A DNA stretch of 64,000 bases, taken from contig NZ_LQNF01000021.1 of NCBI RefSeq assembly GCF_001618145.1, forward strand, positions 1 through 64,000, given 5' to 3'. The position numbers and the translations under genes were made by a program. The first letter of the stretch is position 1, and each line of letters begins with the position of its first letter. This document shows positions 12,387 through 50,626 of this stretch, one piece after another. This DNA comes from Oceanobacillus damuensis. Its GTDB lineage: Bacteria; Bacillota; Bacilli; Bacillales; Amphibacillaceae. Under the pieces are notes generated by a model, which did not search any database, was not told the DNA's origin, and saw only the letters and a program-made list of their open reading frames with translations.

Positions 12387-13292
12387 ATGTTTAAGAAAAT
12401 AGGAGTTGTAACAGCACTATCAGCAACTTTATTATTCGGTGGAGCTTTTTCATCAAATGCCGAGGCTTCAGCAGATCAAAATCAGTCATTCAATACTTTA
12501 TATAAAGCTTATTATTCTGTGAATGGAGATGCTGACGTAGTTTCAGAGAACGATATTCAAGGACTATTGGATAACGTATTAAATAGATTCGATATAAATT
12601 GGAACGACATCGATTGGCAGTCACTTAAAATAGAAGAAGAGAAAGAAAATAATGAAGAAGCAGCAGAAAAACAATCTGAACCAGAGAAAGTAACTGAGAA
12701 AGAAGAACCTGCAAAAGAAGAACCAGTTCAGGAACAACCAGCAGCAGAAAAGCCTGTTGAAGAAGAACCAGTAAAACAAGAACAACCGAAACAAGAACAA
12801 CCAAAACAAGAACAACCGAAACAAGAACAACCAGAAGCACCAGCACAACAACCAACTCAACAACCGGCACAACCACAAGAGCAACCTAGCCAAAATCAAG
12901 AACAATCACAACAATTAAGCCAATTCGAGCAAGAAGTAGTAGAATTGACTAACCAAGAAAGAGCAAAACAAGGTTTGGCTGCATTGCAAATCGATACAGA
13001 ATTAAGTAAAGTAGCTCGTGAAAAATCACGTGACATGGCAGTAAACAACTATTTCGATCATAATAGCCCAACACATGGTTCACCATTTGATATGATGAAG
13101 AGCTATGGCATCTCCTACAAGACTGCTGGTGAAAACATTGCAAAAGGACAACGTACACCTGCAGAAGTGGTAAACGCTTGGATGAATAGTGAAGGTCACC
13201 GTGCAAATATCCTAAATGGTAACTACACACACATCGGAGTAGGTTATGTTGAACAAGGTAATCACTGGACACAGCAATTTATCGGGAAGTAA
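12387..13292 (+). CDS. Secreted CAP/SCP-domain protein, YkwD type
   Basis: Exported protein of 301 aa. An N-terminal signal peptide (hydrophobic 5-20, likely cleavage after NAEASA) is followed by a mixed segment, an acidic then Gln/Pro/Glu/Lys low-complexity linker (about 75-180) with four perfect KQEQP units, and a C-terminal CAP domain (about 185-301) with VVELTNQERAKQGL, HNSPTHGSPF, AGENIAKGQ and WMNSEGHRANI. This is the B. subtilis YkwD layout; the function of the bacterial group is not established, though surface or spore-coat roles are discussed. ATG 12387 has AAGGAGAG eight bases upstream and replaces the GTG nine bases earlier. The KQEQP repeat is a likely site of slippage length variation. 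Confidence 0.85.
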   Translation: MFKKIGVVTALSATLLFGGAFSSNAEASADQNQSFNTLYKAYYSVNGDADVVSENDIQGLLDNVLNRFDINWNDIDWQSLKIEEEKENNEEAAEKQSEPEKVTEKEEPAKEEPVQEQPAAEKPVEEEPVKQEQPKQEQPKQEQPKQEQPEAPAQQPTQQPAQPQEQPSQNQEQSQQLSQFEQEVVELTNQERAKQGLAALQIDTELSKVAREKSRDMAVNNYFDHNSPTHGSPFDMMKSYGISYKTAGENIAKGQRTPAEVVNAWMNSEGHRANILNGNYTHIGVGYVEQGNHWTQQFIGK

Positions 13293-21693: not shown

Positions 21694-22587
21694 ATGAACA
21701 AATTTAATTTCTTTACACTGTTATTAGCATTTACCATAGTACTAAGTGCATGTGGCGGTTCTGATGATACAGATTCCACAAGCAGTGAAGGAGAAGGTGC
21801 AACAGAAAGTACATCAGAAGAAACTGCAGATGGCAGATGGGAAGAAATTCAAGAATCAGGAGAACTTGTTGTAGGAACGTCGGGTACTTTGATTGCATCA
21901 TCTTTTTATGATGAGAATGATGAATTAACAGGGTATGATGTTGAGGTAATGCGCGAAGTTGCTGAACGTCTTGGTCTTGAAGTCAGCTTTGAAATTATGG
22001 GTATCGACAGTATGCTTCCAGCCGTACAAAACGGCAGAATTGACGTGGCAGCAAATGATGTTGAAGTTACAGACAAAAGAAAAGAAGAATTCAATTTCAG
22101 TGAGCCATATAAATATTCATATACAACCATGGCAGTCCGTGAGTCTGATAACTCAGGAATTGAAACATTGGAAGATTTAGAAGGTAAAAAAGCAGGTGGT
22201 GGTGCAACAACTATCTTCAGTCAGATAGCCGAACATTACGGTGCAGAGGTGATCACATATGGAAACGCACCTAATGAAGCGTATTTGAGTGATGTCAGTA
22301 ACGGAAGAACAGATGTGGTAATCAATGATTATTACTTAACTAAATTTGGTGTAGCAGCATTTCCTGACTTTGATCTGCATCTGCACCCTACATTGATGTT
22401 CCACCCGACTGAGCAGGCAGTTGTAATTCCTAAGGGAGCTGACCAGCTCACAGAGGAAATCAATAACGTGCTGAATGAAATGCGTGAAGATGGAACACTA
22501 TCTGAGTTAGCTATACAGTTTTATGAAGAAGACGCTTCCGTTATGCCTGAAGGTGATATCGAAGTAATTGAAGGATTGGAACTGTAA
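21694..22587 (+). CDS. Amino acid ABC transporter substrate-binding lipoprotein, cystine type
   Basis: Extracytoplasmic lipoprotein of 297 aa. Lipobox LSAC with C20 for lipid attachment, then a Ser/Thr/Glu/Asp-rich tether (21-50), then a periplasmic-binding type II domain (GELVVGTSGTLIASSFYDEN, YDVEVMREVAERLGLEV, VAANDVEVTDKRKEEFNFSEPY). The pattern resembles TcyA/TcyJ cystine binders, but polar amino acid specificity cannot be fixed. RBS AAAGGGGTG. The permease gene follows after 28 bases. No ATP-binding subunit gene is adjacent. Confidence 0.85.
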   Translation: MNKFNFFTLLLAFTIVLSACGGSDDTDSTSSEGEGATESTSEETADGRWEEIQESGELVVGTSGTLIASSFYDENDELTGYDVEVMREVAERLGLEVSFEIMGIDSMLPAVQNGRIDVAANDVEVTDKRKEEFNFSEPYKYSYTTMAVRESDNSGIETLEDLEGKKAGGGATTIFSQIAEHYGAEVITYGNAPNEAYLSDVSNGRTDVVINDYYLTKFGVAAFPDFDLHLHPTLMFHPTEQAVVIPKGADQLTEEINNVLNEMREDGTLSELAIQFYEEDASVMPEGDIEVIEGLEL

Positions 22588-22615
22588 TAAGCTTATCATT
22601 GAAGGAGAATGACAG

Positions 22616-23299
22616 TTGAACTTCAACGGATTTGATTTCGGAGGATTATTTGATATTGAACTAGCCATAAGAAGCCTTCCTTTCGTGTTGGGAGGCTTGC
22701 CAATGACAATTCTCATAGCCATTGCAGGTATGGGGATTGGGTTAATACTAGGGTTATTCCTTGCTCTGGCAAGAGGGTCTAAAAACATCTTGCTGCGCTG
22801 GCCATCGAGGATCTATATATCCTTTATGCGGGGAACACCAATGCTCGTATTTCTTTTTATCTTATACTTTGGGTTACCTGTTGTAGGCATAGAATTTACA
22901 GCATTGACGGCAGCCATTATTGGATTTGGCCTGAACAGCGCTGCCTATATTGCTGAAATAGACAGGTCATCTCTGAACAGTGTTGACAATGGACAATGGG
23001 AGTCGTCAAAGGCTTTGAATATGCCTTACTGGATTACACTACGGAAGATTATCTTGCCACAGGCAACCCGTATCGCTATTCCGCCTTTAACAAACGTATT
23101 TATGGATATAGTCAAGGCGACATCACTGGCGGCCGTTATCACAGTTCCGGAACTTTTCCAAAAAACACAGATTGTTGCAGGAAGAGAATTTGATGCAATG
23201 ACAATGTATGTTCTTGTAGCATTAATTTACTGGCCAATTTGCATACTTATAGGATATATGCAGGAAAGATTGGAAAAACGGTACAGCAGCTTTATATAA
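22616..23299 (+). CDS. Amino acid ABC transporter permease
   Basis: Inner-membrane permease of 227 aa with about five membrane helices in the HisM/GlnP family: a membrane entry near 24-45 (LPFVLGGLPMTILIAIAG), FMRGTPMLVFLFILYFGLP, and the ATPase-contact EAA-like loop ESSKALNMPYWITLRKIILPQATRIAIPPLTN. The start is TTG with GGAGAATGA upstream. The usual third gene for the ATPase is missing: a terminator and the 52-bp array follow. It must share an ATPase encoded elsewhere, or the cluster is a truncated remnant. Confidence 0.87.
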   Translation: MNFNGFDFGGLFDIELAIRSLPFVLGGLPMTILIAIAGMGIGLILGLFLALARGSKNILLRWPSRIYISFMRGTPMLVFLFILYFGLPVVGIEFTALTAAIIGFGLNSAAYIAEIDRSSLNSVDNGQWESSKALNMPYWITLRKIILPQATRIAIPPLTNVFMDIVKATSLAAVITVPELFQKTQIVAGREFDAMTMYVLVALIYWPICILIGYMQERLEKRYSSFI

Positions 23300-23380
23300 G
23301 AAAGGGATTTACTTTATTTCTGCATAAGGGCTACTAGCCGGAAAGACTTAATATGATTACAAACTTCGGAGCTCTGAACT

Positions 23381-23424
23381 GCACCTCAATTGGTAGATAC
23401 ACTATCAATTGGAGGTGCTTTTTT
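23381..23424 (+). terminator. Terminator of the amino acid ABC genes
   Basis: GCACCTC plus AATTG pairs with CAATTGGAGGTGC (one bulge), followed by TTTTTT. About 80 bases after the permease stop. Confidence 0.85.
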
Positions 23425-23535
23425 ATAGAGATTTTTTGCTCATATCCAACTGTTTCCGATCCGGCTTAGAGAAAGTGAAGTTATCAATGGCTCTGCTATG
23501 ACGGGGAGCAGCGTAAACTAATTTCATTCTAGTTG

Positions 23536-24230
23536 TGAAGGTCAAAACCTGGGAAGGAAGTGTCGGAAAAGGTCTTCATTAAGGTTATGAAAGTCAAAAC
23601 CTGGGAAGGGAGCGTCGGAAAAGATCTTCATGGAGGGTATGAAGATCAAAACCCGGAAAGGAAGCGTCGGAAAAGACCTTCATGGAGGTTATGAAGATCA
23701 AAACCCGGGAAGGAAGCGTCGGAAAAGATCTTCATGGAGGGTATGAAGATCAAAACCCGGAAAGGAAGCGTCGGAAAAGATCTTCATGGAGGGTATGAAG
23801 ATCAAAACCCGGAAAGGAAGCGCCGGAAAAGATCTTCATGGAGGTTATGAAGATCAAAACAAGTGAAGGAAGCGCCAGAAAAGACCTTCATGGAGGTTAT
23901 GAAGATCAAAACAAGTGAAGGAAGCACTGGAAAAGATCTTCATGGAGGTTATGACGATCAAAACAAGTGAAGGAAGCACCGGAAAAGATCTTCATGGAGG
24001 TTATGAAGATCAAAACAAGTGAAGGAAGCACCGGAAAAGATCTTCATCAAGGTTATGAAGATCAAAACAAGTGAAGGAAGCGCCGGAAAAGATCTTCATC
24101 AAAGTTATGAAGGTCAAAACAGAGAAGAACTCGTCGAATAAGGCTTTCATCAATGCTATAAAATCAAACGTTGAAAAAGATTTTCGCCGATTTTATGAAG
24201 GTAAAACCCATGAAGAAAGCTCCAATAGAA
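23536..24230. repeat. 52-bp tandem repeat array, 12 good units plus decayed ones
   Basis: Units start at 23536, 23588, 23640, 23692, 23744, 23796, 23848, 23900, 23952, 24004, 24056 and 24108, a strict 52-base period, then decay up to about 24230. Most units begin ATGAAGATC and contain GATCTTCAT, so each can form a 9-bp hairpin with a loop of about 25 bases. Two subtypes differ in the loop (CCCGGAAAGGAAGCGTCGG versus AAGTGAAGGAAGCACCGG) and lie in blocks, left and right. GGAGGTT or GGAGGGT precedes the ATG of many units. 52 is not a multiple of three, so it is not a protein repeat. It lies between the ABC operon terminator and yfkD. Confidence 0.9.
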
Positions 24231-24357
24231 CTCATTACCCAATCAGATTTTCTTTTCCGCCCTCGATTAATTCACGCCATTTTGAAAACTATTTTCCAGG
24301 CAGTGCATAATTTAGCCTTAATCGAAAAAAATAGGGGAAAAGAAAGGAATGGAAAAC

Positions 24358-25155
24358 ATGAAAATAAAAAAAATAGCGGTATTTGTAATTGCAGCTCTCT
24401 TATTGTCTCTTATTTTTCCTTCAGCGGGCTTGGCTGAAAAAGAATCGGAAAATAAAGAAATGGAAATACCGAGTCATGTTTTAAATATATCTAAGGAAAA
24501 TACGTATCCAAATTCTACAGAAGATCAGGAAGTTATTGAACCAAGTGAATTGACTCAGGAGTTACTGGACGAACTGTCAGTAGCGATTGAAAATCCGGAT
24601 CTTATTAAAATGCTGAATGAGACATCAATCAACCCTTCCCCAATTTCGATAGGATATCGAGGAATGATTTACCTTGGGAGATGGGCATTGAATTACAATT
24701 CAGAGGAATCGAATATCAATTGGGAATATCAGCAGATTAACCTGAATGAGTTAAATAATCTTGGTGGAAACGAAACGGAAAATATGAATTATATCCAACA
24801 GGAACAGAAGGAAATAAAAGGTGCACTGACAAATAAGATAGCCAACCCGGATGATGTGAAAAAAATGATGCTTTTAAAAGCGAAGGATAAGACAAAACTA
24901 CCGCTTTCCTATAATACCATCATAGGAAAAAACACAAAAAAAGATAATTCCTATGGTGTCCCCGCAAAGAAATATGGAACATTGCAAGCATATGCCCCGG
25001 CGGTCAACGAAAAAGGGCAAGTGACATTTGGGGAAGTGTACTTGAAATTAAAGGGTTCAAAGAAATCGATTGAAATTAAAAATGTAACAAAACAAGGTAT
25101 AGGTGGATGGATTCCGATTCAGGACCACATTTCCTTTTCCTATAAAACAAAATAG
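24358..25155 (+). CDS. yfkD: YfkD-like exported protein
   Basis: 265 aa with an N-terminal signal peptide (KIKKIAVFVIAALLLSLIFP, cleavage likely near AGLAEK). The remainder matches my memory of B. subtilis YfkD along its length: IPSHVLNISKENTYPN, NPDLIKMLNETSI, IGYRGMIYLGRW, MMLLKAKDKT and GIGGWIPIQDHISF. It is probably at the membrane or wall surface; function unknown. ATG 24358 is preferred over 24349 because AAAGGA directly abuts the latter. Synteny with B. subtilis (yfkJ-H, yfkD, pdaA close together) supports the name. The 52-bp array ends about 130 bases upstream and may lie in its leader region. Confidence 0.85.
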   Translation: MKIKKIAVFVIAALLLSLIFPSAGLAEKESENKEMEIPSHVLNISKENTYPNSTEDQEVIEPSELTQELLDELSVAIENPDLIKMLNETSINPSPISIGYRGMIYLGRWALNYNSEESNINWEYQQINLNELNNLGGNETENMNYIQQEQKEIKGALTNKIANPDDVKKMMLLKAKDKTKLPLSYNTIIGKNTKKDNSYGVPAKKYGTLQAYAPAVNEKGQVTFGEVYLKLKGSKKSIEIKNVTKQGIGGWIPIQDHISFSYKTK

Positions 25156-25167
25156 TTTCAGCACTCC

Positions 25168-25196
25168 ACCCTGTAATTAAAATGCAGGGTTTTTTT
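25168..25196 (+). terminator. Terminator of yfkD
   Basis: ACCCTG / CAGGGT stem with an 11-base loop and a T-run of seven. Confidence 0.8.
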
Positions 25197-25303
25197 CATA
25201 AAAAGGGGTTGCTTTTTTTGCATCAGTGCTTTATCATGGTAAAGTATTAAAGGGAGAGAAAAATTGGCTCATCATAGATTGTGACACAGGGGGAAGATTT
25301 AAA

Positions 25304-26614
25304 ATGGAATGGGTTGTTATTATATCGGTTTTAGTAATGATGATTTTGAGTTTGCTGCGTGTAAATGTGATCATCGCCATCATCGCTGCAGGCTTAACGG
25401 CCGGAGTATTGTCTGGCCTATCTGTAGTAGAATCAATTGAATTACTTGTTAGTGGTATGGGTGATTCATCGAGTACTGCATTAAGTTATATTTTACTTGG
25501 AGCATTCGCCGTGGCAATCAGTTACACGGGGATTACTTCCGTTTTAGTTACCTATCTTATTCGCGTACTGACAGGTAAGAAAACAATGATGCTGCTGGCG
25601 ATAGCGGGTGTAGCATCCCTATCTCAAAACGTGGTTCCTGTCCATATTGCATTTATACCGATTTTAATACCACCACTTTTAAAATTGTTTGATCAAATGC
25701 GTATGGATCGCCGGGCTGTTGCAGTTGCACTTACTTTTGGTCTTAAAGCACCTTATATGATGATACCGGCAGGATTCGGTCTGATTTTCCATGGCATCAT
25801 CATCGAAGGCATGGAAGCAAATGGTTCTTCCATTACAAATGGGGAAACTGTATTAGCGATGCTGATTCCTGGTTTGGGGATGGTTGTTGGACTATTGATC
25901 GCAATTTTCATTACGTATAGAAAAGACAGAGATTCGATACCAGGTGCAGGGGGCTCCGGAGCAACCATCCAAATGCCGGAAAACCAAACGGTTACTTTTA
26001 ATAAAAATCACAAACTGACGATTGTTGCGATTATTGCCGCACTAATCGTTCAGATTATCACCGATAACCTTATACTGGGCGCATTAACTGGTTTATTGTT
26101 TATGTTTCTGTTACTTGTCGTGCCATTTAAAAATGGAGATAAAGTCATGACAGAAGGAATCAGCATGATGGGTACAATCGCGTTCGTAATGCTGGTGGCA
26201 TCCGGTTTCGGAACGATATTAAAAGAAACGGGTTCAGTGGACGCATTGGTTGAATTATCAACCGGATTTTTAGGGGATAATAAAGCACTTATTGCATTTA
26301 TTTTATTATTGGTAGGTTTAATGGTTACTTTAGGAATAGGTTCCTCATTTGGAACAATTCCTATACTTGCGGCATTATATGTTCCAATTTGCATGGCAGC
26401 AGGTTTTTCGCCTGTTGCAACAGCAGCACTTATCGGGACGGCCGGAGCACTTGGAGATGCTGGTTCTCCTGCCTCGGACAGTACACTTGGACCGACAGCT
26501 GGGTTGAATGCAGATGGGAAGCATCACCACATTTGGGATACTGTCGTGCCAACCTTTGTCCACTTTAATATTCCGTTAATCATATTCGGATGGGTTGCTG
26601 CAATGGTACTATAG
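25304..26614 (+). CDS. Na+/H+ antiporter family protein
   Basis: 437-aa integral membrane protein of the NhaC-related Na_H_antiporter group (YuiF-like). The N-terminus is very hydrophobic (MEWVVIISVLVMMILSLLRV). Other landmarks are LGAFAVAISYTGI, SQNVVPVHIAFIPILIPPLL and LGDAGSPASDSTLGPTAGLN, the last being a strongly conserved polar loop in this family. The ORF can be extended 26 codons, but ATG 25304 follows GGGGGAAG at proper spacing. Some members are controlled by lysine riboswitches and may move amino acids rather than ions; no lysine riboswitch is visible here. Monocistronic, upstream of pdaA by about 50 bases. Confidence 0.83.
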   Translation: MEWVVIISVLVMMILSLLRVNVIIAIIAAGLTAGVLSGLSVVESIELLVSGMGDSSSTALSYILLGAFAVAISYTGITSVLVTYLIRVLTGKKTMMLLAIAGVASLSQNVVPVHIAFIPILIPPLLKLFDQMRMDRRAVAVALTFGLKAPYMMIPAGFGLIFHGIIIEGMEANGSSITNGETVLAMLIPGLGMVVGLLIAIFITYRKDRDSIPGAGGSGATIQMPENQTVTFNKNHKLTIVAIIAALIVQIITDNLILGALTGLLFMFLLLVVPFKNGDKVMTEGISMMGTIAFVMLVASGFGTILKETGSVDALVELSTGFLGDNKALIAFILLLVGLMVTLGIGSSFGTIPILAALYVPICMAAGFSPVATAALIGTAGALGDAGSPASDSTLGPTAGLNADGKHHHIWDTVVPTFVHFNIPLIIFGWVAAMVL

Positions 26615-26665
26615 AATAATTTTATAATAAATAGGAAAAGGTAAGAAAAAAACAGGTGGGTTGCT

Positions 26666-27457
26666 ATGCGAAATTTTAATGCAGCATCAATCATCATTTT
26701 TCTTACCTTTTTTATTTGTTTTATGGAGCCTTCCACATCGCAAGCATTTGGCTGGGGATACAAGAAGAACTCCGAACATAAAATACCTGAAATCGGCTCT
26801 TACCAGCAGTTGCTAAAAAAATATGGAGCCTATTATGTGGATGACTCTGGTGCAAAAAATATCTATATTACCTTTGACAATGGATATGAGCAGGGGCATA
26901 CCGAAGAAATACTGAATGTGTTAAAGAAAGAATCTGTCCCGGCAACATTTTTTGTGACAGGTCACTATGTGAAAAGTGAACCGGAACTAATCAAGAAAAT
27001 GGTGGATGAAGGTCACATCATCGGAAATCACTCCTACCACCATCCGGATTTTACGATATTATCGAAGGATGCAATACAGAAGGAGCTTGAAACACTTGAA
27101 GCGGCAGTGGCAGAAGTGAGTGATCAAAAGGAAATAAAGTTTTTGCGACCTCCAAGGGGAGTGTTTAATGAAAACACATTGCGGTGGGCAAACGAACTGG
27201 GTCTTATCCACGTATTTTGGTCCCTTGCTTTTACAGATTGGGATGTTAATAAGCAGAAGGGTTCGCAATATGCCTATGATCAAATTATGGCTCAGATGCA
27301 CCCAGGTGCAATCATTCTGATGCATGCAGTCTCTTCCGATAACGCAGAAGCCCTGGAGCGTATTATCCAGGACCTGAAAAAACAAGGGTATGCATTTAAA
27401 AGTCTGGATGACCTGCTAATAAATGAAATGCTGCCAGATAGTTTTCATGGTTTATAA
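26666..27457 (+). CDS. pdaA: Delta-lactam-biosynthetic de-N-acetylase PdaA
   Basis: Spore cortex enzyme that removes the acetyl group from N-acetylmuramic acid after CwlD cleavage, allowing muramic-delta-lactam formation and later germination. 263 aa, the length of B. subtilis PdaA. A signal segment (1-28) is followed by the NodB homology domain: YITFDNGYE, where the canonical first motif TFDDG reads TFDNG as in PdaA; GHIIGNHSYHHPDF with metal-binding histidines; FLRPPRGVFNE; and ILMHAVSSDNAEAL. RBS AGGTGGG. Expression in the forespore (SigG) is known for B. subtilis; I could not place that promoter. Confidence 0.92.
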   Translation: MRNFNAASIIIFLTFFICFMEPSTSQAFGWGYKKNSEHKIPEIGSYQQLLKKYGAYYVDDSGAKNIYITFDNGYEQGHTEEILNVLKKESVPATFFVTGHYVKSEPELIKKMVDEGHIIGNHSYHHPDFTILSKDAIQKELETLEAAVAEVSDQKEIKFLRPPRGVFNENTLRWANELGLIHVFWSLAFTDWDVNKQKGSQYAYDQIMAQMHPGAIILMHAVSSDNAEALERIIQDLKKQGYAFKSLDDLLINEMLPDSFHGL

Positions 27458-27465
27458 AAGCCAAT

Positions 27466-27503
27466 AAAGTGTGCGGATTTTATAAAAGTCAGCACACTTT
27501 TTT
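27466..27503. terminator. Bidirectional terminator between pdaA and the GGDEF gene
   Basis: AAAGTGTGC / GCACACTTT stem with TTTT after it, plus an outer CCAA/TTGG pair. pdaA and the cyclase gene converge here. Confidence 0.85.
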
Positions 27504-27558
27504 GGCCAGAGAGTATAAAAAATTAGTGCAGCTAAAGCATTTGCCAAGCTTTAATAAG

Positions 27559-28851
27559 TTACTCGCGTATTTGGATGTTGTTTTTTCCTGCAGATTTGGC
27601 TTCATATAAAGCCAAATCTGCATTTTTTAGTATGGAAACTGGAGTTGCCTTTTCATCCGATACAAGTGCAATCCCGATACTGGCTGTAATTTTGAAAATG
27701 CTTTCTTTATAATACCAGGGTTCCTGTATGGCATTATGAATTCTTTTAACTATTTCGAGGGCATTTTCTTTCGTATTGATATTGGGGAGGATAACAGCAA
27801 ATTCATCTCCACCGAGTCTTGCTGCTGTATCTTTTTTTTGGAGGCTGTCATCCAATCGTTTGGCTGCAATTTGAATGACCTTATCACCAAAATCATGGCC
27901 CATCTGGTCATTAAATTGCTTCAGGTTGTCGACATCAATCATTAAAACAGCTAGCCCATTTTTTGAAGATGCCATCGCAGTTGCAAGTTTTTGATTGAAA
28001 TATCTCCGATTAGGCAAACCGGTCAGAACATCATGTAGAGCGAAATGCTCCAATTTACTTTCGTACTCCTTTTGATGTGTAATATCTCTCGTAATCAGAG
28101 CGAGGTGGATTAACTTCATATTTTCATCAAATACTGGAGTACCTGACAATTCAACCCAAATCCATCCTTTGGTGTTGTGCTTGTGCTTAAACTGCAATTT
28201 GCAGGATTGATCCTCATTAATTGCTGTGCTCAGTGCGTCGAGCAGTTTCATTTGATGTTCTGGATGTATAATGTTGATATAAAGCTGGTCAAGCAATTCA
28301 TTCTCATCAAGGCCGAGATTTTCCTTATAGGAAGGAGATGCATACATGATTTTTCCTTCGTTATCCAACAGGGTGATAAAATCATGAGAGTTTTCCGCAA
28401 TGATCCTGAATCGCTTTTCACTTTCCTTCAGCTTTTCATAAATCCCTTTATTCTCTAATTTAGTGATTCTTTCTTCTGTAATATCCGTCACCAGTGCCAC
28501 AATATGAGTACAAATTCCTTGATCATTGCATAGCGGTGTAAGCTGAGTTTTCGAATATTGCTTGTCACCGGAAGCAGAAAGATAATAATCATGGTAGATT
28601 AACTTCTCTTTCGTTGCTGCTACCTGCCAATATTTTTCATATAGGTGATCGGACTTTTCTCTATCGTCTACGTAAACCGTCTTGATGCTGCTGCCAATTA
28701 CGGCATCGGTCAAACCACTATTCTTCATTGCAGCGTGATTGAGAAATTCATAGTATAGCTCCAAATCAGCATCTACGCGAATAACGAATATCATGTTTTG
28801 TATACCATTCATTAAAACTTCTTCATATATGAAGCCAGCCGAGCTAGTCAT
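27559..28851 (-). CDS. PAS-PAS-GGDEF diguanylate cyclase
   Basis: 430-aa soluble sensor enzyme making cyclic di-GMP. A first PAS-like region (about 10-130, ending VALVTDITEERITKLEN) is followed by a second PAS with PAC motif (about 143-268, FRIIAENSHDFITLLDNEGKI to HLALITRDITHQKEYE) and a GGDEF domain (about 275-430). The active-site motif GGDEF is at 347-351, and the metal-binding DVDNLKQFND is intact, so it should be active. The inhibitory I-site RxxD five residues before the motif reads QKKD, so product inhibition is probably absent. No membrane segment, no EAL. Monocistronic; no neighbour explains its target. Confidence 0.9.
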   Translation of the reverse strand: MTSSAGFIYEEVLMNGIQNMIFVIRVDADLELYYEFLNHAAMKNSGLTDAVIGSSIKTVYVDDREKSDHLYEKYWQVAATKEKLIYHDYYLSASGDKQYSKTQLTPLCNDQGICTHIVALVTDITEERITKLENKGIYEKLKESEKRFRIIAENSHDFITLLDNEGKIMYASPSYKENLGLDENELLDQLYINIIHPEHQMKLLDALSTAINEDQSCKLQFKHKHNTKGWIWVELSGTPVFDENMKLIHLALITRDITHQKEYESKLEHFALHDVLTGLPNRRYFNQKLATAMASSKNGLAVLMIDVDNLKQFNDQMGHDFGDKVIQIAAKRLDDSLQKKDTAARLGGDEFAVILPNINTKENALEIVKRIHNAIQEPWYYKESIFKITASIGIALVSDEKATPVSILKNADLALYEAKSAGKNNIQIRE

Positions 28852-29013
28852 GACAGCATCTTCCTTCTTTTACGTAAAGATTCGATTAGGGTACTATAGT
28901 CCTGAATTTCAACCTTTTTTAACGTACTTTTTCCTCAGAAAATTATATCACAGAGGATATCAAAGCGATATAGAAATTTAATAACATATAGGTTTGCTGA
29001 AGTATCGTCTGCC

Positions 29014-29292
29014 CCTGTTAAATGGGAGAGGAGTCCAGTCAAACGGTAGGGTGCGCTGCCAAATGGGAGAGGAGTTCAGTCAGCCGGGAGAGGATTCCAT
29101 CCGGGCGGGAGAGAGGACGAGTCAGCCGGGAGAGGGTCCATCCGGGCGGGAGAGAGCACGCGTCAACCGGGAGAGGACCCCAGCAAACCGGTAGAGAGGC
29201 CGCACCGAACGGTAGAGGAGTCCAGTCAACCAGTAGAGAGCCCACACCTAACGGCAGAGCATCCCTCCAAACGAGAAAAGCAAAAACTCCAC
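29014..29292. repeat. 21-bp degenerate tandem array, about 12-13 units
   Basis: A motif like AACCGGGAGAGGANTCCAGTC recurs with a spacing of 20-22 bases: GAGAG-type cores near 29026, 29066, 29087, 29108, 29129, 29149, 29170, 29192, 29212, 29233 and 29254. Units alternate between GGGAGAGG and GGGAGAGAGG, suggesting an original 42-base pair. The GC content is well above the neighbourhood. Because 21 is a multiple of three, Arg/Glu/Gly-rich ORFs run through on both strands, but they have no RBS and look artefactual. It lies between the divergent cyclase and clpE genes. Confidence 0.8.
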
Positions 29293-29442
29293 GCCCCACC
29301 TGGCCAGCTACAAAAGCTTAAGACTATAAATTTTGCATCGTAAAACCAATACACATCACTTACAAATAAGTAATCTTTTTCAATTGCACCATTTAACAAC
29401 AGTGCCGCCATCTAACAACAGACAAAAAAACAAACAAAATAC

Positions 29443-29471
29443 TTGAAAGTCAAAATAGGTCAGAGTATAAT
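29443..29471 (+). promoter_or_regulatory. Sigma-A promoter of clpE
   Basis: TTGAAA (29443-29448), 17 bases, TATAAT (29466-29471). A CtsR box lies inside the spacer and another just downstream. Confidence 0.85.
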
Positions 29472-29496
29472 AAAGTCAAGGTCAAAGATAGTCAAA
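29448..29496 (+). promoter_or_regulatory. Two CtsR operators of clpE
   Basis: AGTCAAAATAGGTCAGA (29448-29464, between -35 and -10) and GGTCAAAGATAGTCAAA (29480-29496, at the start of the transcript). Both fit the CtsR heptad direct repeat GGTCAAA-N3-GGTCAAA, the second almost perfectly. An extra AGTCAAGGTCAA overlap lies between them. Confidence 0.9.
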
Positions 29497-29544
29497 GTCA
29501 AATGAAAATGAAATAGATACAATATTTATAAGGAGGAATGGGAA

Positions 29545-31683
29545 ATGCAATGTCAACAATGTGGTGTAAATCAAGCTAGTATTAACGCGCAAGTGCACAT
29601 TAATAACCAGAAAATGGAGATGCATCTTTGCGGTGAATGTTTTCGTGAATTACAAGGGAAAATGATGAACTCGAATGACTTTTTCTCTAATACTCCGTCT
29701 GGAAACTTTAATGATGCGTTTGCCAATAACTTTTTCCAAGGTAATGGGGGAAGCAAAATGGAAACAAATACAAAGCAAAAAGCAAATAAAGGAAATGGCC
29801 TGATTGATCAGTTAGCCAAAAATGTTACGGATTCAGCGAGAGCTGGAGGAGTTGATCCGGTAATCGGCCGTGACAAAGAAATAAAACGTGTAGTTGAAAC
29901 ATTAAATAGAAGAAATAAAAATAATCCTGTCCTGATTGGTGAACCTGGTGTCGGTAAAACTGCTATTGCGGAAGGACTGGCAGTTCGAATTGTGGAAGGT
30001 AACGTACCGGCAAAACTACTGGACAAAGAAATTTATTTGCTTGACGTAGCGTCCCTTGTCGCCAATACAGGAATACGAGGGCAATTTGAAGAACGAATGA
30101 AAAAGCTGATTGAAGAACTGCAGTCCAGAAAAAATGTGATTCTATTTATCGACGAAATTCATTTGATTGTTGGTGCAGGTACAGCGGAAAGTTCACAAAT
30201 GGACGCAGGAAATATTTTGAAGCCTGCCCTTGCACGTGGCGATCTGCAATTGATCGGTGCAACTACATTAAAAGAATACCGTCAGATCGAAAAGGATCCT
30301 GCACTTGAAAGACGTTTGCAGCCAATTATCGTGAATGAACCATCCATGAATGACTCAATCAAGATTCTGAATGGCATTAAGGACCGTTACGAAGATTTCC
30401 ATGAGGTTCGCTACTCAGATGAAGCAATCGAAGCTTTCGTGACATTATCAAACCGTTATATCCAAGATCGCTTCCTGCCGGACAAAGCGATTGATCTAAT
30501 GGATGAGGTAGGATCCCGTCTAAATCTCGCGAATGCCCAAAAGGATTCAGCATCACTTCAGCAACGTTTGGATGAGGTTGTAAAAGAGAAACAGGAAGCA
30601 GCAGATCGAGAAGATTATGAACGTGCTGCCAACTTGCGCTACCAGGAAATTCAGCTTCAAAAGCAAATGGAAAAAGCTGTTGATGGTGAGAAGACACTTG
30701 ATGTCGATATCTCTGATATTCAATTGATTGTTGAAGAGAAGACAGGCATCCCTGTTACGAAAATGCAGGCAGATGAGCAAGAGAAAATGAAAAACATTGC
30801 TGAAAACCTGCGTAAGAAAGTCATTGGACAAGATGAAGCAGTCAACAAGGTTGCCAAGGCTATCCGCCGCAGCCGTGCAGGCCTAAAATCGAAAGACCGC
30901 CCAATCGGTTCCTTCCTGTTTGTCGGACCGACTGGTGTAGGGAAAACAGAGTTAACGAAAGTACTTGCCGAAGAATTATTTGGTACGAGAGATTCTATGA
31001 TTCGCCTTGATATGAGTGAATATATGGAGAAACATGCCGTATCAAAAATTATCGGTTCACCACCAGGATATGTAGGACACGAAGAAGCAGGACAGTTAAC
31101 GGAACGTGTGCGTCGTAACCCATATTCCATTCTATTGCTGGATGAAATTGAGAAGGCACATCCGGATGTTCAAAATATGTTCCTGCAAATCATGGAAGAT
31201 GGACATTTGACTGACTCACATGGCCGAAAAGTAAGCTTTAAAGAAACAGTTATCATCATGACAAGTAACGCTGGTACTGGTGTGAAATCGGTGAACGTTG
31301 GTTTTAACAGCAACAGTCACGAATCTGTATCGACACTTGAGAAACTGAGCGATTACTTTAAACCAGAGTTCCTGAACCGTTTCGATGCAATCGTAAACTT
31401 TAATGAGCTGGCAGAAGATCACCTATTAGAAATTGTTGATTTGATGCTTTCCGAACTTGAAGATACCGTTAAAGAAAACAATATTTCGATTACAATTACG
31501 GATGAAGCAAAACAGGAACTTGTTCGATTGGGTTATGATTCCCGTTTTGGTGCACGACCTTTACGTCGGGTAATTCAAGATAAAATTGAGGACCAGCTGA
31601 CAGATCTGATCCTTGAAGAAGAGACGATTGAAAACATCCATGTTGATGTTATAGAAAATGAAATTGCTGTCCAAAAAGCATAA
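29545..31683 (+). CDS. clpE: ATP-dependent Clp protease ATPase subunit ClpE
   Basis: Hsp100 unfoldase that feeds ClpP and helps disaggregate proteins after heat shock; in B. subtilis it also destabilises CtsR. 712 aa. The N-terminal zinc finger C3xxC6...C29xxC32 distinguishes it from ClpC. The first AAA module has Walker A GEPGVGKT at 132-139; a UVR-like coiled segment follows near 340-375; the second AAA module has GPTGVGKT at about 461-468, then a C-terminal D2-small domain ([11 protein letters not shown]). RBS AAGGAGG. Monocistronic, with CtsR boxes upstream and a strong terminator downstream. Confidence 0.95.
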
Positions 31684-50374: not shown

Positions 50375-50626
50375 ATGGCTAAAAAACCAAATCAAACAAC
50401 TGCAGGTACTAACGTTCAGCATGTTAAACAACAAAACCAACAAGCAGCCCAAGGACAAGGTCAGTTTGGTACAGAATTTGCTTCTGAGACAAACGCTCAA
50501 GAAGTTAAAAAGCAAAACAAACAAGCTGCTCAAGGACAAGGTCAGTTTGGTACAGAATTTGCTTCTGAGACAAATGCTCAAGAAGTTAGAAAGCAAAACC
50601 AAAAGTCTCAATCAAACAAAAAGTAA
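50375..50626 (+). CDS. sspE: Gamma-type small acid-soluble spore protein SspE
   Basis: 83-aa spore-core amino acid reserve protein, degraded by Gpr on germination. Contains the Gln/Asn-rich composition and two 27-residue repeats encoded by an 81-base tandem duplication starting near 50441 and 50522. Each includes QGQFGTEFASETNAQEV, where the Glu-Phe-Ala-Ser-Glu segment is the typical Gpr cleavage motif. ATG 50375 with GGAGGTGAT; the earlier start has no RBS. Expected to be forespore-specific (SigG). A strong terminator follows. Syntenic with B. subtilis sspE between yfhS and ygaC. Confidence 0.93.
   Translation: MAKKPNQTTAGTNVQHVKQQNQQAAQGQGQFGTEFASETNAQEVKKQNKQAAQGQGQFGTEFASETNAQEVRKQNQKSQSNKK

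Follow-up and report, generated by a model that had tools for sequence, protein, structure and literature searches.

Tandem repeats of 52 nt, constant in length and variable in sequence, have been described in Bacillus by Subirana and Messeguer (2021; PMC8161180), whose main text also reports a constant-length class of 20-21 nt, proposes a polymerising protein or a small RNA, and mentions short sequences 'and their reverse' within one repeat. The terms 'NERD', 'nuclease', 'palindrom', 'orientation' and 'leading strand' have no occurrence in that main text; such repeats are also reported, in the available part of the source, from RNA-seq of B. coagulans (PMC8625621). These repeats have been called enigmatic because their fixed length with free sequence had no explanation and they had no known partner protein. 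Here we analyse an array of 52-bp units in a 64-kb stretch of DNA from Oceanobacillus damuensis (contig NZ_LQNF01000021.1, positions 1 to 64,000; hereafter the window). With 11.5 copies of regular length and 0% indels, and with further arrays of the same length and different sequence in the same genome, this array falls within the 51-53-nt, at least four-copy range of the class and is a member of it; the published repeats resemble it, as far as the main text goes, in period (51-53), variable sequence, occurrence in Firmicutes and presence at many places per genome. What is new lies not in the window array but in a two-part system of a NERD-domain gene and an adjoining array.

With confidence only a little above even, we read the window array as one of the scattered copies of this system's repeat component; in the system, a NERD/zinc-ribbon nuclease gene is followed directly at its 3' side by a 52-bp palindromic array that would provide phased DNA sites and be maintained or spread by the nuclease. 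The RAYT/REP systems (BIME, REPIN) share with it, in the accessible part of their literature, a nuclease-type gene beside palindromic repeats and many scattered extragenic palindromes, the latter being equally a property of the 52-bp arrays. They differ in having a Y1/HUH transposase where the present proteins have a NERD domain, the only domain above the Pfam cut-off in the three proteins searched; here, moreover, the tandem period is strict and the array lies mostly at the 3' side only. RAYT/REP palindromes carry a GTAG-type tag at their foot, and no such conserved columns were seen in 31 units of the present arrays. The system would thus work as RAYT does for REPs without belonging to that family. 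CRISPR-Cas also places a repeat array beside a nuclease gene, but there the spacers are unique, whereas here the sequence separating the palindromes also recurs from unit to unit, there is no Cas match and a genome holds many arrays. Type III toxin-antitoxin systems of the ToxIN kind have tandem repeats adjoining a nuclease gene; here, in contrast, the array lies behind the gene, its purine-rich strand is mostly opposite to the gene, and scattered copies occur without the gene. We found no link between NERD proteins and tandem repeats in the literature covered, which did not include a 2020 J. Bacteriol. paper on these repeats.

Within the window, Tandem Repeats Finder (TRF) gave its top score to this array, with period 52 and 92% matches (Table 1). 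Self-identity over positions 23500-24150 was 0.87 at lag 52, 0.85 at lag 104 and 0.83 at lag 156, with the next lag at 0.38, and eleven junctions, marking twelve left arms, are spaced 52 bp apart. A preliminary description of the DNA had counted twelve units at exact 52-base spacing in two subtype blocks; both statements hold, the blocks being visible in the sequence as ..CCCGG.. units followed by ..CAAGTG.. units. Its hairpin in each unit is slightly too strong a wording, for the 9-bp arm pair GATCTTCAT/ATGAAGATC is perfect in 6 of the 11 junctions, agrees at 8 of 9 positions in four and at 6 of 9 in one. It was right that no long protein runs through the array: open reading frames (ORFs) inside it reach 40-44 aa, and one of 79 aa begins in the last units. 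The GGAGGTT-ATG motif, which had looked like repeated start signals, was rejected as a conserved start signal because only 2 bases separate GGAGG from ATG and because the 7-base junction loop varies among related arrays (caaggcg, caggttt and others). Rfam at a relaxed threshold returned three matches below the gathering score in 22000-30000, none of them within the array.

The partner protein emerged from a comparison of 652 ORFs near arrays, which contained one unexpected group, a protein of about 305 aa at 8 loci lying 8-610 bp from arrays; a larger group consists of ABC transporters by their look. All three partner proteins searched match NERD (PF08378) at 48.4-56.9 bits against a curated cut-off of 22.1, and DUF6671 appeared below its cut-off in two of the three. 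In this subfamily, here called A, the 44 full-length proteins have a median identity of 48%, and E45, D77 and K92, which we take to be the nuclease active site, are invariant in 44 of 44, as are C220, C223, C237 and C240, presumably a zinc ribbon. The protein was matched in 148 of 397 genomes. Phage and plasmid collections gave no match to it at 1e-10 or 1e-15, and on this ground a phage or plasmid origin was rejected.

The flanks of fifty subfamily-A loci were analysed with no motif assumed; 30 were the fetched best loci of the protein search, and 20 were picked by hand from the matches listed, in genomes without TTCAT/ATGAA arrays. The 3' flank holds a lag-52 segment in 47 of the 50 and a lag-51 segment in the other 3, and 46 of the 47 lag-52 segments sit at most 200 bp from the gene end, while the 5' side has a lag segment in 5 of 50. 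TRF places the start of a 51/52-bp array at most 400 bp away for 45 of the 50 loci. Two loci (L354, L356) adjoin pyrimidine tracts that inflate lag scores, and a third (L383) has its near array at the 5' side and its 3' array 2.3 kb away; with these three left out of 47, the purine-rich strand of the home array, that is, the array beside the gene, is opposite to the NERD gene in 38 of 44 typed values.

A census by one criterion of all 46 PF08378 matches in eight genomes, which we chose, most of them for their wealth of arrays, separates two subfamilies. All 19 subfamily-A genes have a 51/52-bp array at the 3' side and none has one at the 5' side. Subfamily B comprises 14 genes for NERD and zinc-ribbon proteins of 299-341 aa, and at the 5' side of 11 of them lies an array of 20-21 bp or of twice that period; three of these 11 have such an array at the 3' side as well, and three of the 14 have none. 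Among the other 13 NERD matches, 10 lack arrays, two have 20-21-bp arrays at the 5' side (one of 322 aa, one a 118-aa fragment) and one has a weak 51-bp array at the 3' side. Control genes from an even 400-kb sample of genome G389 (n=237) gave 52-bp arrays at the 3' side in 3 and at the 5' side in 5 cases, and 20-21-bp arrays in 1 and 4, respectively; control windows of G296, placed away from known arrays, gave 0 of 70. The Fisher values are 7e-26 for subfamily A and 9e-14 for subfamily B, and these, like our Mantel values, overstate the case because related genomes are not independent. Within the genomes examined, the pairing of subfamily A with 51/52-bp arrays is nearly certain. Across the 397 genomes, 48 have both a TTCAT/ATGAA array and the protein, 3 the array only, 100 the protein only and 246 neither; some of the protein-only genomes carry home arrays with different arms.

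The units are palindromic, and changes in one arm are matched in the other. In 31 units 89.7% of arm cells are paired, against 32-49% when the partner is slid by 1-3 columns, and 25 cells changed on both sides compared with 7.0 after shuffling; six pairs change on both sides. Among home arrays, 21 of 45 have a 10-base palindrome at loop 7 in which 8 or more positions pair, against 1.4% of shuffles, and 15 of 45 reach 9-10 of 10 pairs at this loop, against a fraction of 0.0008 of shuffles, with palindromes at loops 5, 9, 23, 25 and 27 as frequent as those at loop 7.

A search with the array DNA located further arrays in the window's genome, on contigs C10, C19, C1 and C34, at 66-74% identity to the window array and with period 52 retained. 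It also hit arrays in two of a further 38 genomes, neither of them from the window's family. Wrapped at 52, these arrays follow a common plan with differing letters: a left arm, about 25 purine-rich bases, a right arm and a 7-base loop. A covariance model of the unit, built on the 31 units and containing no period information, gave 84 matches in the window's genome at E <= 0.1, with neighbours mostly 52 bp apart; among the sampled congeners, only G004 (9 matches) and G005 (1) matched it at E <= 0.01. The wider distribution was followed with a pattern of two TTCAT-N7-ATGAA palindromes exactly 52 bp apart over genome contigs, which found at least 117 stretches; of the 80 listed, 79 belong to Bacillales genera by name and one is assigned only to Bacillota. 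In an even sample of the order, the paired pattern occurs in 51 of 397 genomes, with up to 390 matches per genome, and its reversed control has 0 matches among the genomes listed. The sensitivity of model R1 is limited, with 14 of 30 array genomes recovered at 1e-4. The 52-bp period (51 in a few) is kept across many genera while the sequence drifts. Three viral contigs (L309, L310, L311) also carry two palindromes at 52-bp distance.

The arrays are also oriented. Among 146 arrays found, 128 and 125 were kept as clearly oriented, and the purine-rich strand follows the leading strand at 102 loci and not at 12 (n=114 with clear skew), where skews within 0.02 of zero were set aside and local skew is itself tied to gene direction. 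In G136, 4 arrays at 0.49-1.17 Mb are on the plus strand and 9 at 2.73-4.35 Mb on the minus strand, as seen with a pattern that requires two purines at one site and so retains 66 of 103 pairs. Among the matches listed, G201 has 16 plus arrays up to 2.17 Mb and 7 minus arrays from 3.21 Mb, G249 has 2 plus arrays and then 5 minus, and five TTCAT arrays of G389 at 1.66-1.94 Mb agree with the leading strand; GC skew agrees with the array strand in all 20 fetched G201 windows. With neighbour genes defined as the longest ORFs, both flanking genes are co-directional with the array in 55 cases, both opposite in 16, convergent in 35 and divergent in 6. Where both flanking genes are opposite (16 arrays), the array is on the skew-leading strand in 9 cases and on the other strand in 3, with 4 unclear; between co-directional genes 1 of 55 is on the lagging side. 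These two distributions suggest that replication direction, more than the neighbouring genes, sets array orientation; the replication site envisaged in the preliminary description finds support in this orientation bias and in nothing beyond it. By eye, subfamily-A NERD genes in G136, G198 and other complete genomes seem often to be on the lagging strand, facing the array.

Across 54 loci, more similar proteins go with more similar units (r 0.39, 0 of 2000 permutations). Once proteins share less than about 50% identity, their units are hardly more alike (0.42-0.43) than shuffled ones (0.417), while period and palindrome are retained. In G389, with its two protein copies and two types of array, 8 of the 9 scattered arrays resemble one or other of the two home arrays at 0.67-0.90, and their mean similarity to other genomes is 0.41-0.54.

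Of the ideas in the preliminary description, the one that fits the array best is that of a helically phased site for a protein, because the period of 52 is constant despite sequence drift, the arms co-vary and a nuclease gene adjoins the home arrays. The palindromic units would be double-stranded DNA sites of the NERD protein, and binding of the units by this protein is likely. As 52 bp corresponds to five helical turns, proteins on successive units would share one face of the DNA and could touch. The nuclease may cut or nick at or near the units, which would then be copied, through repair or replication at the fork, into further intergenic sites, for the most part oriented with the leading strand, so that the activity of the protein would keep or spread the arrays; this nuclease-driven dispersal is plausible. 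The proposal builds on the pairing of subfamily with period, the strict period, the paired changes that keep the palindrome, the strand bias and the scattered copies. A wider claim is put forward tentatively, at less than even confidence: two NERD/zinc-ribbon subfamilies would each keep and spread their own phased array, 52 bp (about five turns) 3' of A and 20-21 bp (two turns) 5' of B, in a nuclease-repeat system not described before that would explain both constant-length classes of Bacillus and tie copying to replication direction. The NERD subfamily beside arrays supplies a gene to delete, express and assay, and the second subfamily, with its 20-21-bp arrays, shows the rule a second time within these data. 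Dispersal by a NERD nuclease, if true, would be a repeat-spreading system built on a nuclease domain other than that of RAYT.

Several observations weigh against this proposal. Scattered arrays are closest to the home array of their own genome in 32 of 79 cases overall; the window array itself is 0.56 similar to its own home array and 0.63 to those of G201 and G027, 7 of 8 scattered arrays in G249 do not match their home array (0.44-0.52), and in G296 only two of 19 match their own home arrays strongly (0.92, 0.85). A lost or diverged partner behind such unmatched arrays is possible. Only 8 of 16 typed home arrays share their type with the nearest protein relative, and three array-bearing genomes lack the protein at our threshold. 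Six of the 50 subfamily-A loci, with in-frame stops, are not readable as full-length proteins, and the G201 gene (L212, C1 near 1.944 Mb) is split into two ORFs while more than 20 well-kept arrays persist. In the complete genome G296, polarity holds for 7 of 11 arrays and is violated by 4 (one of these with a purine fraction of 0.50), and three G389 52-bp arrays from the even sample have the purine-rich strand on the other side. A structure model from five sequences was poor (pLDDT 60.6), and a PDB profile search with the partner protein found no relative, only two chance-level zinc-domain matches. Finally, a motif array is present at the yfkD site in 0 of 23 sampled congeners, all 23 of which have the downstream gene.

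An alternative is that the NERD protein, or another, coats the phased arrays, with a role in nucleoid organisation or as an aid to replication and none in dispersal. The helical phase, the leading-strand polarity in G136, G201 and G249, the lack of plasmid and phage matches and the polymerising protein proposed in the main text of PMC8161180 would all suit such a platform. We nevertheless consider it unlikely, since presence is patchy (51 of 397 genomes), the yfkD site is empty in the congeners, partner genes are broken in places and such a role has no need for the conserved nuclease site. A role as RNA, with the array transcribed into a series of hairpins that would control genes or hold the NERD protein in check as in type III toxin-antitoxin systems, is less probable again. 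The arms could pair, RNA-seq of B. coagulans is reported to include such arrays (PMC8625621, in the part available), and tandem contexts favour the sense direction with genes by 55 to 16; yet arrays between opposite genes mostly follow the skew, and arm mismatches in the 125 oriented arrays number 92 G.T, 151 A.C and 294 others, with single unit changes at 52 G.T against 64 A.C. Because the mismatches are not skewed to G.T there is no wobble signature on the sense strand, and the multi-hairpin RNA of the preliminary description gains no support from the arms; the A.C excess is unexplained.

A further alternative is a neutral satellite arising by slippage and unequal crossing-over, with adjacency to NERD genes through common descent only. 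Fast turnover of sites and the absence of a fixed sequence speak for it, but period and palindrome are kept while unit similarity falls to the shuffled level, 19 of 19 subfamily-A genes compare with 3 of 237 controls, and two subfamilies have two periods; we regard it as very improbable. We give still less credence to a defence system in which the NERD nuclease acts against foreign DNA and the arrays serve as self-mark or sink: a nuclease gene with a repeat array, patchy distribution and several copies per genome recall such systems, whereas the PADLOC defence library has no match for the three partner proteins and tens of scattered arrays would be superfluous.

Returning to the window, the position before yfkD is not conserved. 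With no motif assumed, the yfkD loci of the 23 sampled congeners show period 52 in none and a lag of 40 in one, and a yfkD-linked element was rejected. The window array is either a local gain or was lost elsewhere.

Table 1. Features of the window and the subfamily-A gene of its genome.
Feature	Position	Strand	Basis or remark
52-bp tandem array, 11.5 copies	23532..24127	+ (purine-rich strand = +)	TRF, lag profile, junction table, orientation
Lag-52 similarity of at least 62%	23499..24143	+	Lag profile
Degenerate end units, to about 24230	24128..24230	+	Read by eye, no tool boundary
Eleven junction palindromes (9-nt arm, 7-nt loop, 9-nt arm)	23571..24116	+	First at 23571, last begins 24091
Terminator-like hairpin with T run, between upstream gene and array	23381..23425	+	Read by eye, unscored
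Upstream ORF, 227 aa, co-directional; amino-acid ABC transporter permease by look	22616..23299	+	ORF list
Downstream ORF, 268 aa, putative yfkD (name from the preliminary description)	24349..25155	+	ORF list
Subfamily-A NERD gene of the window's genome	C34:10044-10955		Protein search; contig other than the window's

Other repeats were also noted. At 29065-29259 of the window, TRF found tandem arrays of 20-22 and 41-42 bp, which belong to the other constant-length class; the genome has its subfamily-B NERD/zinc-ribbon genes outside the window's contig, on C16 and C1. Tandem repeats at 12700-12833 and 50423-50599 have periods of 15/30 and 81 bp by TRF, multiples of three, and are perhaps coding. 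A 36-bp repeat of 58.7 copies at L214 789-2891 lies inside a 911-aa ORF and looks like a collagen-like coding repeat. Four 81-82-bp arrays in G389 (L220, L226, L236, L238) form two pairs of similar units and contain inverted repeats; in all four, the purine-rich strand and GC skew are in agreement.
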